NCBI RefSeq assembly: GCF_900683735.1
Contig: NZ_LR215979.1
Coordinates: 434,001 to 498,000, forward strand
DNA length: 64,000 nucleotides
Source of the DNA: Fusobacterium ulcerans ATCC 49185
GTDB taxonomy: Bacteria > Fusobacteriota > Fusobacteriia > Fusobacteriales > Fusobacteriaceae
Direction: 5' to 3'
Shown here: piece after piece, positions 6,759 through 11,672 of the stretch
How positions within the stretch are numbered: the first letter of the stretch is position 1
Layout of the letters: every line of letters begins with the position of its first letter
Translations under genes and position numbers: made by a program
The notes under the pieces: generated by a model
The model's input: the letters and a program-made list of their open reading frames with translations, nothing else
What the model was told of the DNA's origin: nothing
Database searches by the model: none

Positions 6759-8297
6759 CTATTCAGTTACATAGACATTTGTAAGATCTAAATAACCATT
6801 ATTTTTCATAATAAGATTATGAATATTTTTTCTCATCCCAAGATTTAGTTTTGGATAAAGAATAGTGTAGTGAGGAAGCTCTTCCTGTAATATCTCCTGA
6901 GCCTTTCCATAAAGTTCTTTTCTAACTTTAGGATCCATTGTTATTCTTGCCTTATCAAGAGTATCATCTAAGTCCTTATTTACAAAAGCAGTTACATTCA
7001 TAGAACCTTTTATTTGAGATGAATGGAAAAGAGGATACATAGTTTTATCACAATCTCCATTAGCTGTGTTCCATGACATATAGAAAATAGGTTTTACTTC
7101 ATTCTCATTTTCAATCATTTTAATATAAGTAGCCCATTGGAAAACTTTAATTTCAGTATTAATTCCTATTCCTCTTAACTGCTCCTGAATAATAACACAA
7201 GCATCAATTCTTGCAGAATCATCACTTACCCATAAATCAATATTGAAACCATTAGGGTATCCAGCTTCAGCTAAAAGTTCTTTTGCTTTAGCAGTATTCA
7301 AATCATACTTTTTAGCATCAGGATTGAAATCTGTCATAGCAGGAGGAACTACAGAAGTTCCAGGTGTTGCAGAATCTCCATATATAGCTTGGGTAATAGC
7401 ACTATTATCTACAGCATAAGCTATTGCTTGTCTTACTCTCTTATCTTTCAACAACTCATTTTTAGTATCAAATCCAATAAACTGGCTAGTAGGAGCTTCA
7501 ACTTCAATATAATCTAAAGAGTTGTTGTTTTTGATAGATTTCAAATCCATAACACCCATGTCTAAAGAGATATCAGCTTCACCAGTTTCCAACATAATCA
7601 TTCTGCTGTTATTTTCAGTTATGAATTTAATAACTACTTCTTTAAGTTTTGAAATAGTTCCATAGTAATCATCAAATCTCTCCATAGTAAGTCTATTCCC
7701 TATATCCCATGACTTAAATTTAAATTGCCCAGTTCCTACAGGATTAGTAAGAAATACATCTTCTGAAGATTCAACTAACTTTTTATTAATTATTGAAGAA
7801 TTTGTAATGCTAAGTTGATTCAAAAGGCTTCCAAAAGGAGTATCTGTAGTTATTTTGATAGTATTTTCATCAATTACAGTTACTTCTTTTATAGGAGTGA
7901 AATTATATGCACATTGAGGAAGGCTTCTTGCTCTATCCAAAGAAAACTTTACATCTTCAGCGGTCATAATATCTCCATTGTGGAATTTAACATTTTTCTT
8001 TAAATGGAATATTGTATTTAAGGGATCAACAGATTCCCAGCTTTCAGCTAATCCTGGAAGCAGATTAAGATCTTTATCCATAGTTATCAAAGTATCAAAC
8101 ATAAGCTGAATTATTTTGTTAGACACTGAATCAGTACTTTTTTGTGGATCAAGAGTTTTGATTTCAGCTTTTTGAGCGATAACTAAAGTATCTTTTAGTT
8201 TAACATCTTCTGAAGTTTCAGATTTTATAGCTTTTGTTCCTCCTAATAATAAAGCAAAAGTAAGTAAAAAAATTACAGCCAATAGTTTCTTTTTCAT
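6759..8297 (-). CDS. ABC transporter substrate-binding protein, family 5 (peptide type)
   Basis: 512 residues, the length of DppA/OppA-type periplasmic binding proteins. The signal peptide (residues 1 to about 23) ends in TKA with no lipobox cysteine, so the product is probably free in the periplasm. Family landmarks: KTLDPQKSTD, ESWESVDPLNTIFHLKKNVKFHNGD, a TAEDVKFSLDRA block, and DKRVRQAIAYAVD near residue 285. No permease or ATPase gene is adjacent, so it must serve a transporter encoded elsewhere. Its upstream region holds a promoter, a Trp-rich leader peptide and a terminator (8343-8661), which suggests amino-acid-responsive control. The ligand is unknown. Confidence 0.9.
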   Translation of the reverse strand: MKKKLLAVIFLLTFALLLGGTKAIKSETSEDVKLKDTLVIAQKAEIKTLDPQKSTDSVSNKIIQLMFDTLITMDKDLNLLPGLAESWESVDPLNTIFHLKKNVKFHNGDIMTAEDVKFSLDRARSLPQCAYNFTPIKEVTVIDENTIKITTDTPFGSLLNQLSITNSSIINKKLVESSEDVFLTNPVGTGQFKFKSWDIGNRLTMERFDDYYGTISKLKEVVIKFITENNSRMIMLETGEADISLDMGVMDLKSIKNNNSLDYIEVEAPTSQFIGFDTKNELLKDKRVRQAIAYAVDNSAITQAIYGDSATPGTSVVPPAMTDFNPDAKKYDLNTAKAKELLAEAGYPNGFNIDLWVSDDSARIDACVIIQEQLRGIGINTEIKVFQWATYIKMIENENEVKPIFYMSWNTANGDCDKTMYPLFHSSQIKGSMNVTAFVNKDLDDTLDKARITMDPKVRKELYGKAQEILQEELPHYTILYPKLNLGMRKNIHNLIMKNNGYLDLTNVYVTE

Positions 8298-8340
8298 TTT
8301 GTTTCCCCCTCGGTATCATTTAAAAGTTCTTTAAGAATAA

Positions 8341-8370
8341 AAAAAAGCAATCTGGTTAGATTGCTTTAAA
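8341..8370 (-). terminator. leader terminator/attenuator before the solute-binding protein gene
   Basis: On the minus strand, AAAGCAATCT and AGATTGCTTT form a 10-bp stem with a 4-base loop (AACC), followed by eight T. It lies 44 bases upstream of the ATG at 8297 and after the leader peptide, so it could act as an attenuator or simply end pdxST transcripts. ATCTAAC in its left arm and loop is complementary to GTTAGAT inside the leader ORF (7 bp), a possible antiterminator. Confidence 0.8.
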
Positions 8371-8463
8371 AAACAAGTGATATTTCTCATATATATCATG
8401 CGTGCTCCTAAAAACATGACATATATAAATTTAGATTTATATATTCAAATATTTTAAAGGAGT

Positions 8464-8592
8464 TTACACAGAAGTATAAAAGTTATCAAAAGACGTAAGC
8501 TTATATCTAACATTAAAAATTTCTGTATACAGTTTTTCTGTGCAGCTCCACCACCAATATTGGAATACAGTGTTTAAGTTAGATAATATCAT
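8464..8592 (-). CDS. putative leader peptide with three consecutive Trp codons
   Basis: A 42-residue ORF starting MILSNLNTVFQYWWWSC, with an excellent RBS AAGGAGG 7 bases before the ATG at 8592. It does not resemble a known structural protein. Three tandem TGG codons (residues 13-15) in a short ORF between a promoter and an intrinsic terminator is the layout of a Trp-sensing transcription attenuator. The longer in-frame ORF to 8661 would start before the mapped promoter and is unlikely. Translation and regulatory role are inference. It is longer than the textbook E. coli TrpL. Confidence 0.6.
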   Translation of the reverse strand: MILSNLNTVFQYWWWSCTEKLYTEIFNVRYKLTSFDNFYTSV

Positions 8593-8632
8593 ATTGATAA
8601 CCTCCTTTTTCATAGTTTTATTTCTTGTAAAG

Positions 8633-8661
8633 AGTATATGATAAATCTTTTTAAAAGTCAA
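8633..8661 (-). promoter_or_regulatory. sigma70-type promoter for the Trp leader
   Basis: On the minus strand, TTGACT (8661-8656), a 17-base spacer and TATACT (8638-8633). The -35 overlaps the pdxT stop codon. Transcription would begin near 8626, about 34 bases before the leader ATG. Confidence 0.75.
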
Positions 8662-10114: not shown

Positions 10115-10283
10115 ATTCTTCCCTCCATATATTCATTGATTATTTTTTTGATTAATATTATAATAAGAGTATCGATACAATTTATTAAAAAATTAATTTT
10201 CTAATGATAGTATCACATAAAATATAAAATTATTCAATTCTAAAAATCACTAATTGTACCGTAACACTTTTATTGGAGGGGTA
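10115..10283. promoter_or_regulatory. pdxS / MocR divergent control region
   Basis: 169 bases between the two starts. It contains CGATACAATT at 10173-10182 and its near-copy in reverse orientation, CGGTACAATT (10261-10252). A weaker relative lies at 10206-10216 (minus strand GTGATACTATC). A TATAAT (minus strand, about 10157-10165) suits a pdxS -10, with no good -35 at the right distance, as expected for an activator-dependent promoter. Assignment to the neighbouring regulator is inference. Confidence 0.5.
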
Positions 10284-11672
10284 ATGAAAATAGAGTTATC
10301 TACAGAGAATGGAGAAAAAATATATCTTCAGCTTTATTACAAATTAAAGGAATTAATAGAAAATGGAGAGATAAAAGGGAAAATATTCTCTATAAGGGAG
10401 CTTGCTAAGAATTTAGGAGTGAGTATTTCAACAGTAGTAAAAGCATATGAACAGCTGGAAAAAAATGGATATATATACCTTCGTGGAGGAAGCGGAGCTT
10501 ATGTAAAATACAACAGAGAAAAAAAATTTTATCTGGAAGACCATATGGAAAATGAAATATTTAAATATGGTTACTTTAATTCTGAATACAGGATAGATTT
10601 TTCTACTGCATCACCAAATGCTGATTTTTTTCCTATTGAAGAATTAAAAAAAGCAATTAACTACGTTTTAGACAGAGATGGTGGAAAAGCTCTTCTTTAT
10701 GAAAATCCGCAAGGTTATCTTGAACTTCGTAAAACTATAAAAAGAGAATTGAAACATGAAGGCATAGATATAGAAACAAAAGATATTCAAATAATGTCAG
10801 GAGCTCAACAAGGGATAGATATATTGAGTAAATCATTAATATATCCAGGAGATATTGTAGTGACAGAAGATCCAGCATATAAAGGTGCTATTGTAAGTTT
10901 TAGAAATAATGGAGCAAAAGTAGAAAGAATACCTATGAAAAAAGATGGACTTGATATAAAAGAATTGGAAAAGATTCTGAAAAGAGATAAAATAAAATTT
11001 ATATATACAGCAGCTACTTTTCATAATCCAACTGGAATATCGATATCAGAAAAAAAGAGAATTGAACTTTTGAAATTAGCTGAAAAGTATGATTTTTATA
11101 TTATAGAAGATGACTGCAGTTCAGATATATATTTCGATAATAAAAAAATAAAAAGTATAAAAAGTTATGATAAAAATAAGAAAGTGATATATATAAAAAG
11201 TTATTCTAAAGTTTTTATGCCTGGTTTCAGGCTTGGATTTATGATAGCTCCAGAAAAAATAGCAAATTCTGTATTAGCAGGAAAATATTCCAGTGATATA
11301 TCTAACTCAGGACTGAATCAAAGAGTTTTTCAATATTTTCTAGAAAATGGTATTTGGAATAAACATATAGAAAAATCTAGAAAAGAATTTCATAAAAAGC
11401 AAAAATATATGTATAGTAGACTAAAGAAAATAGAAAATATAAAAATCAACAAACCAAAGGGTGGAATGTGTTTCTGGATAGAGCTTCCAAAGGAAATAAC
11501 AGGTGAAGCTGTATATATGAAACTGGCTAAAAGAGGAGTAGGAATACTTCCAGGAGTGGTTTTTTCTGAAAAATCATATAACTATATAAGATTGAGTTTT
11601 GCTCAGTGTAATGAAAAAGAGATAGATGAGGGAATAGAAATATTGGAAAAAGTAATTGATGAATTGAGATGA
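10284..11672 (+). CDS. pdxR: MocR/GntR-family aminotransferase-like regulator, probable PdxR
   Basis: 462 residues. An N-terminal GntR winged helix (about 1-75; IRELAKNLGVSISTVVKAYEQLEKNGYI) is fused to a fold-type I aminotransferase domain that binds PLP as effector. The PLP-lysine lies in YIKSYSKVFMPGFRLGF near residue 310, and TFHNPTGISI is the usual Asn/Pro block. ATG 10284 has RBS GGAGGGG; the ORF start at 10254 has none. Divergent placement next to pdxST is the classical PdxR arrangement, where the protein activates pdxST when PLP is low. Function by context and family; not shown directly. Confidence 0.85.
   Translation: MKIELSTENGEKIYLQLYYKLKELIENGEIKGKIFSIRELAKNLGVSISTVVKAYEQLEKNGYIYLRGGSGAYVKYNREKKFYLEDHMENEIFKYGYFNSEYRIDFSTASPNADFFPIEELKKAINYVLDRDGGKALLYENPQGYLELRKTIKRELKHEGIDIETKDIQIMSGAQQGIDILSKSLIYPGDIVVTEDPAYKGAIVSFRNNGAKVERIPMKKDGLDIKELEKILKRDKIKFIYTAATFHNPTGISISEKKRIELLKLAEKYDFYIIEDDCSSDIYFDNKKIKSIKSYDKNKKVIYIKSYSKVFMPGFRLGFMIAPEKIANSVLAGKYSSDISNSGLNQRVFQYFLENGIWNKHIEKSRKEFHKKQKYMYSRLKKIENIKINKPKGGMCFWIELPKEITGEAVYMKLAKRGVGILPGVVFSEKSYNYIRLSFAQCNEKEIDEGIEILEKVIDELR

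Follow-up and report, generated by a model that had tools for sequence, protein, structure and literature searches.

The window analysed here is a stretch of 64,000 nucleotides from Fusobacterium ulcerans ATCC 49185 (contig NZ_LR215979.1, positions 434,001 to 498,000 of the forward strand). On its minus strand lies a gene coding for a family-5 extracellular solute-binding protein, with its ATG at 8297. It is flanked upstream by pdxT, which codes for an SNO amidotransferase, and downstream by an MTA/SAH nucleosidase gene. No permease gene adjoins it, and in this sense the protein is an orphan, as it was called in a first-pass annotation of this DNA. A gene for PdxR, a MocR-like B6 regulator scoring above the NCBIfam cut-off, was located at 10281-11672 of the plus strand, divergent from the pdxST-type genes. 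The features of the region upstream of the binding-protein gene are as follows.

8633..8661, minus strand: predicted sigma-70-type promoter TTGACT-17-TATACT (-35 TTGACT at 8661-8656, 17-nt spacer, -10 TATACT at 8638-8633), based on sequence match and on spacing kept in homologues
Immediately 5' of the leader ATG at 8592, minus strand: SD sequence AAGGAGG
8594..8601, minus strand: SD-proximal segment GTTATCAA, 5' arm of helix H1, which hides the leader SD; 8 of 8 pairs invariant in ten leaders
8464..8592, minus strand: leader ORF of 42 aa, MILSNLNTVFQYWWWSCTEKLYTEIFNVRYKLTSFDNFYTSV, stop codon included; homologues have the same SD
8578..8585, minus strand: TATCTAAC, which pairs with GTTAGATA at 8511-8504 in helix H2 (anti-antiterminator arm)
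8548..8556, minus strand: control codons, three adjacent Trp codons TGGTGGTGG
8537..8544, minus strand: TGCACAGA, 5' arm of helix H3, with a C-G to U-A compensatory change between two groups
8505..8511, minus strand: GTTAGAT, antiterminator 5' arm, complementary to the left arm and loop of the terminator
8497..8500, minus strand: GCTT, antiterminator extension, pairing with AAGC at 8366-8363 (39/40 cells)
8482..8489, minus strand: TTGATAAC, 3' arm of helix H1, from the alignment of ten leaders
8465..8472, minus strand: TCTGTGTA, spanning the leader stop codon, 3' arm of helix H3, from the alignment of ten leaders
8339..8367, minus strand: intrinsic terminator (stem 8367-8344, T8 at 8346-8339), with compensatory A-U/G-C changes in the stem
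8361-8355, minus strand: ATCTAAC, antiterminator 3' arm, inside the terminator
6759..8297, minus strand: regulated gene, family-5 extracellular solute-binding protein of 512 aa (PF00496, E 4.5e-89)

The promoter overlaps the stop codon of pdxT, the ORF of which ends at 8658. The first-pass annotation had named this promoter, a strong ribosome-binding site, a 42-codon ORF with a Trp triplet, a terminator with eight T and the binding-protein gene, and all of them are present on the minus strand. The two pairings it proposed were found as well: GTTAGAT (8511-8505) is complementary to ATCTAAC (8361-8355), and the CACAGAA/TTCTGTG pairing corresponds to that between TGCACAGA (8544-8537) and, where the ORF ends, TCTGTGTA (8472-8465). 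The folding of the transcript, also suggested there, gave a structure better than those of 100 out of 100 shuffled sequences. The Trp triplet TGGTGGTGG occurs once in the window (0.07 expected by chance), and a consensus promoter scan is uninformative by itself, with 22 matches versus 21.2 expected. No Rfam match was present in the window.

The 42-aa leader peptide was used to search 61 genomes of the family, and the positives share the same SD sequence. A homologous leader was found in 10 of the 61, which corresponds to 10 of the 12 genomes of the genus, in a single copy each. In four genomes (G000, G025, G026, and G027), the leader lies 5' of an orthologous binding-protein gene (96-98% identical). 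In six others (G018-G023), it precedes an unrelated gene coding for an NSS-family symporter. At least two adjacent Trp codons (2-3 TGG), the SD sequence and the terminator are kept in 10/10 leaders, and so are the -35 hexamer, the 17-nt spacing and the -10 hexamer; the length of the leader varies between 34 and 42 codons. The annotation had held that loss of the Trp codons or the terminator, where the binding-protein gene is kept, would speak against its reading; both are retained in all four genomes that keep the ortholog, and TGG runs, terminator and antiterminator are conserved throughout the alignment of ten leaders. The two genus members without the leader, G024 (71% complete) and G028, contain no NSS orthologue at 1e-60 and only binding-protein relatives with about 41% identity or less. 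This conservation is the decisive evidence that the observation is not due to chance. The ten leaders represent few independent lineages (Infernal effective number 2.2), since those within the binding-protein group of four, and likewise those within G018-G021, are near-identical.

The SD-to-start pattern, 16 bases long, has exactly one occurrence per genome in the ten leader genomes and none in the rest of the 61 family genomes; among 98 genomes of the phylum, its exact form was found in no further one. When one mismatch was allowed, the phylum search gave 15 more places, none of which is a Trp leader. The R1 model revealed no other confident place in 42 sources or in those 15 loci (best E 0.028). 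The SD pattern was matched by 108 stretches of viral contigs, and a short W-x-W ORF followed it in 0 of 80 of these; a leader with the SD pattern was not found in plasmids. Two genomes, G012 and G013, gave E values below 1e-2 in the peptide search; they lack the SD pattern, no such leader was seen in them, and they were rejected.

Selection at the RNA level was assessed in the alignment of ten leaders by counting pairing per cell, with shuffles and versions slid by 1-3 columns as controls. Together, H1, H3 and the terminator are paired in 258 of 260 cells (99.2%), compared with 31-45% for the slid versions. H1, formed by GTTATCAA and TTGATAAC, is invariant in all ten leaders. H3 joins TRCAYAGA, directly after the Trp codons, to TCTRTGTA across the stop codon. 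Compensatory changes were found in two of the three conserved helices, namely H3 and the terminator. Two-sided changes affect three pairs, a number attained in 25/500 shuffles, and ten cells, attained in 0/500; the number of further pair types (5) is not above that in shuffles (6.9). The change in H3 replaces an amino acid on each of its two sides (Thr-Ile; Val-Met), and the pair is preserved. H1 and H3 cross, and simple hairpins of the two are mutually exclusive; within the mechanism, what H3 does is the least certain point. A pairing comparable to H2 is present in G022 and G023, and four short leaders are without it. The end of the ORF (ATATCTCTAT) has a further possible partner in several NSS leaders, a segment lying between the stop codon and the terminator (L062 1600-1670, with equivalents in L061 and L063).

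The antiterminator, GTTAGA...GCTT with AAGC.TCTARC, is paired in 98 of 100 cells (11-48% in slid versions), and its core of six pairs in 59 of 60. In the ten leaders, this helix shows conserved complementarity and no two-sided covariation, which we count against the attenuator reading; the lack of two-sided change is explained by the near invariance of its 5' arm. The reading-frame phase of GTTAGA is 0 in nine leaders and 2 in G023. Since the motif is conserved out of frame in G023, it is the RNA and not the peptide that is kept there, and this comparison of sequences argues against a peptide-specific arrest.

The effect of the ribosome position was studied by folding. With the ribosome placed at chosen codons, the RNA was removed as far as 13 nt past the first base of the A-site codon, and the pairing probability of GTTAGA with TCTARC was scored before the right arm of the terminator exists. 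When the last Trp codon of the run occupied the A site, the antiterminator reached 0.80-0.99 in 10/10 leaders: 0.98-0.99 in the four binding-protein leaders, 0.98 in G018 and G023, 0.97 in G019, and 0.80 in G020, G021 and G022. With the first codon of the Trp run there instead, the value was 0.92-0.98 in seven leaders, 0.09 in G022, and 0.04 in both G020 and G021. A ribosome at the stop codon gave 0-0.12 in all ten. When no ribosome was present, the value was 0.00 in eight leaders, 0.08 in G023 and 0.51 in G019, the last of which counts against the attenuator reading. So does the effect of a ribosome at the start codon, which freed the antiterminator in the binding-protein group (0.44-0.96) and in G018 (0.44); the other NSS leaders gave 0-0.10. 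The permissive A-site stretch covers about 9-12 codons, with the Trp codons at its 5' edge. For assumed footprints of 9-17 nt, eight leaders stay above 0.74; G020 and G021 are sensitive to the footprint (0.04, 0.28, 0.80, 0.75 and 0.43 at 9, 11, 13, 15 and 17 nt, respectively).

Once the complete terminator is present, it wins at equilibrium in every ribosome state, so the switch must be kinetic. The antiterminator survives until 5-6 of the 7 bases of the terminator right (3') arm have emerged. The control experiment was performed on the E. coli trp leader with a like script and a looser score, in which the left arm of the terminator may pair with anything upstream. It gave an antiterminator probability of 0.71 in the stalled state versus 0.06, and the terminator was at 0.96-0.98 throughout. 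As the E. coli leader behaves alike, the terminator's win at equilibrium is not a mark against the switch. In a further control, the segment separating the Trp codons from the terminator was shuffled, and the looser score was applied again. The shuffles attained the real difference 0/60 times in seven leaders, 4/60 times in G018, and 1/60 times in both G021 and G019. Under this score, three leaders (G018, G019 and G023) do not have a low value in the absence of a ribosome (0.61-0.68).

The second target of the leader is an SNF/NSS-family (LeuT-fold) sodium symporter. The copy in G022 matches PF00209, and the nearest solved chains to the NSS protein include LeuT and dopamine transporters. A tyrS-like gene follows the NSS gene in four of the five leader loci read far enough (L087, L088, L089 and L091; the tyrS-like identity was tested on the L087 copy), and in L090 a gene on the opposite strand intervenes. 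No tryptophanase gene lies beside the leader-bearing NSS copies in these five loci (L087-L091). Leaderless NSS orthologues, 79-80% identical, occur in G000, G026 and G027. In G000 (L136 2646-6929), the orthologue is divergent from a tryptophanase-like lyase gene, with a PAS_6/HTH_22 regulator gene between them. This lyase passes the NCBIfam cut-off for the tryptophanase subfamily and fails the equivalog cut-offs for tnaA and tyrosine phenol-lyase; the other two high-scoring lyases of G000 are tyrosine phenol-lyases, above the cut-off. By coordinates, a similar lyase is near the NSS gene in G026, G027, G030, G033 and G034, and the G034 copy, which was typed, scores like that of G000. In the Bacillus cereus group, according to excerpts of PMC2494555 (Wels et al. 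2008), an NSS gene is preceded by a Trp T-box; TnaT, an NSS protein, is cited there as a Trp transporter. The gene company of the leader thus points to Trp, and Tyr is also possible. The importer reading is strengthened because an NSS transporter with tryptophanase-linked orthologues shares the leader.

A different conserved leader, MKKLNNNYxKN...NTFSWCWC*, with an SD sequence and a terminator, precedes an NSS paralogue in genus g5 (L122 1231-1302 in G033; L133 minus strand in G030, ATG at 1617 of the reverse complement). Genes that look cysK- and cysE-like by eye are downstream in G030, so sensing of Cys is also possible. One member that was folded gave no clear switch (0.51 with no ribosome, 0.66 stalled).

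In the genus, 12 of 12 genomes lack TrpA, with a positive control in 14 of 14; Trp synthesis is therefore unlikely there. A starvation-induced importer is the expected logic for cells without Trp synthesis. A leader of a trp operon proper was rejected, as the targets here are not Trp-synthesis genes. We also rejected a T-box riboswitch, because no covariance-model match was obtained in the window or in 11 of the 12 genus genomes (G000 and ten others). The sole T-box of the genus (L265, G024:C53:5272-5519; 125 bits) is in the 71%-complete G024, a genome without the Trp leader, and may represent contamination or a real gain.

The sequence shows the parts of the region and how they are conserved, together with compensatory changes and a predicted switch. 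By this evidence, the region is very probably a transcription attenuator of the classical ribosome-mediated type, which would respond to the level of charged tRNA-Trp and govern an importer gene. The Trp-starvation attenuator proposed by the first-pass annotation is thus supported by the same leader before NSS in six genomes, the compensatory changes, the frame-shifted conservation and the folding with its control. For events in vivo, namely the start site, stalling and read-through, we infer the following course. The polymerase would start near 8626, and a ribosome would load onto the leader. When Trp is plentiful, the ribosome would pass the WWW codons and reach the stop codon. H1 and H2, in which the leader SD and codons 3-5 pair with the late ORF, would then sequester GTTAGA; once the ribosome has come to the stop codon, this segment would be withheld by H1, joined by H2 in leaders that have the arm for it, or by H3; the terminator would form, and the polymerase would stop. 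By concealing the leader SD, H1 may also limit re-initiation. When Trp-tRNA is scarce, the ribosome would stall on WWW and mask the 5' arms, GTTAGA...GCTT could pair with the emerging left arm and loop of the terminator, and transcription would proceed into the binding-protein gene.

Other readings of the same region were weighed against this one. The terminator might merely end the pdxST transcript, with an incidental ORF and a separate promoter for the binding-protein gene. The terminator is indeed 0.3 kb past pdxT, and the scan yields promoter-like matches about as often as chance would; this explanation is nevertheless hardly credible, given that the same promoter-to-terminator unit stands away from pdxT, before another gene, in six genomes, and that the SD, codons and helices are conserved. 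A control of the TnaC type, in which the ribosome is arrested by the nascent peptide at the end of the leader ORF when free Trp is high and the gene is Trp-induced, as in operons for Trp breakdown, would fit a Trp-linked leader, the tryptophanase-like gene adjoining the NSS orthologue in some genomes, and the fairly conserved C-terminal part of the peptide (IDN...S[MV]*). We regard it as very unlikely. The conserved C-terminal codons overlap the 3' arms of H1 and H3, the common Trp run is more than 25 codons upstream of the stop, and the leader-bearing NSS copies have no adjacent tryptophanase in the five loci. A conserved arrest peptide near the stop was not found: the G023 peptide crosses GTTAGA in another frame with the RNA conserved, and the stop-codon ribosome leaves the antiterminator at 0-0.12 in all ten leaders; the candidate was rejected on these grounds.

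It is also conceivable, if improbable, that the leader is a broader sensor, in which stalling at nearby Tyr, Cys, Ser or other codons, or a general slowing of translation, also opens the switch, so that aromatic amino acids or translation stress, and not Trp alone, would be what is sensed. The permissive stretch of about 9-12 codons includes Tyr before the Trp run and Cys/Tyr after it, and the tyrS-like gene in four of five loci would suit such a role. Against this, what all ten leaders have in common is only the Trp run plus the codons paired in H3, the Tyr before the run is Cys in G022, the Tyr and Cys after it interchange, and it is the Trp run that occupies the 5' edge of the permissive stretch.

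Like E. coli trpL, the attenuator has tandem Trp codons, an antiterminator formed in silico upon ribosome stalling and an intrinsic terminator, and it responds similarly in a like folding test. A translatable leader ORF with a run of regulating codons is found in 10/10 sequences, an intrinsic terminator lies between this ORF and the first gene, and the antiterminator is predicted to form only on control-codon stalling, with the footprint sensitivity of G020/G021 and the no-ribosome value of G019 (0.51) as exceptions. It differs from trpL in its targets, which are importers (a binding protein or an NSS symporter) and not Trp-synthesis genes, in its length (34-42 codons with the Trp run in the first half, versus 14 aa with the Trp codons near the end), and in the helix that covers the leader SD; no sequence homology to trpL was shown. 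It resembles E. coli tnaC in being a Trp-linked leader ORF ahead of a Trp-related operon. Free Trp induces tnaC by way of a specific nascent peptide together with Rho; in the present leader, neither conservation at the peptide level nor stalling at the stop codon is supported. Trp T-boxes of Firmicutes, some of which precede NSS/ABC transporters in excerpts of PMC2494555, follow the same logic (scarce charged tRNA-Trp, more Trp transporter) but bind the tRNA directly; the same excerpts list no Trp T-box for the two Fusobacteria/Thermotogae genomes surveyed. The His leader peptides before hisS*/hisZ of bacilli, according to excerpts of PMC2965389 (Genome Biol. 2010), are also attenuators outside Proteobacteria with the same leader before more than one gene. 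They contain His codons and precede synthetase-family paralogues, whereas the present leader precedes two unrelated transporter families. As these excerpts already argue that attenuators hop from gene to gene and that leader peptides occur in Firmicutes, the mobility of the leader has a precedent.

The binding protein itself may capture Trp or Trp-containing peptides, and this assignment is made more weakly than that of the attenuator; the ligand is the weakest link in the overall reading. The genome contains 20 matches to PF00496. The closest paralogues in G000 are 50-54% identical, and the nearest ones are interspersed with M20 amidohydrolase/carboxypeptidase-like genes (L263 824-8341; G000:C1, about 661.8-669.3 kb), a company that hints at peptide or N-acyl amino-acid ligands. 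Among 18 related loci in genome contigs, only distant relatives of the binding protein (24-35% identity) were found.

We best read the leader as a new member of a known mechanism, notable for the phylum, for its importer targets and for its attachment to two unrelated importer genes. No described case of a leader-peptide attenuator in Fusobacteria, or before a Trp importer, was found in the open-licence PMC literature; the first-pass annotation knew of no pairing of a Trp leader with a binding protein, and our search of that literature revealed none either. Tentatively, and with slightly less than even confidence, we propose that a self-contained Trp-starvation attenuator cassette, which runs from the promoter to the terminator, has passed from one importer gene to another, unrelated one inside a single genus of the family, where it does for Trp auxotrophs the work of T-boxes in Firmicutes, and that the binding protein is a receptor for Trp or Trp peptides sharing the permease of another system.

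Trp supply is important both for indole and for the competition within gut and oral communities. If our reading is true, classical leader-peptide attenuation would operate in a phylum for which no described case was found, and it would be tied to uptake, not synthesis, in bacteria without Trp synthase. It would also provide a testable ligand for one of the twenty family-5 binding proteins of the genome, and one leader before two unrelated importer families would be a natural experiment on the movement of attenuators among genes.
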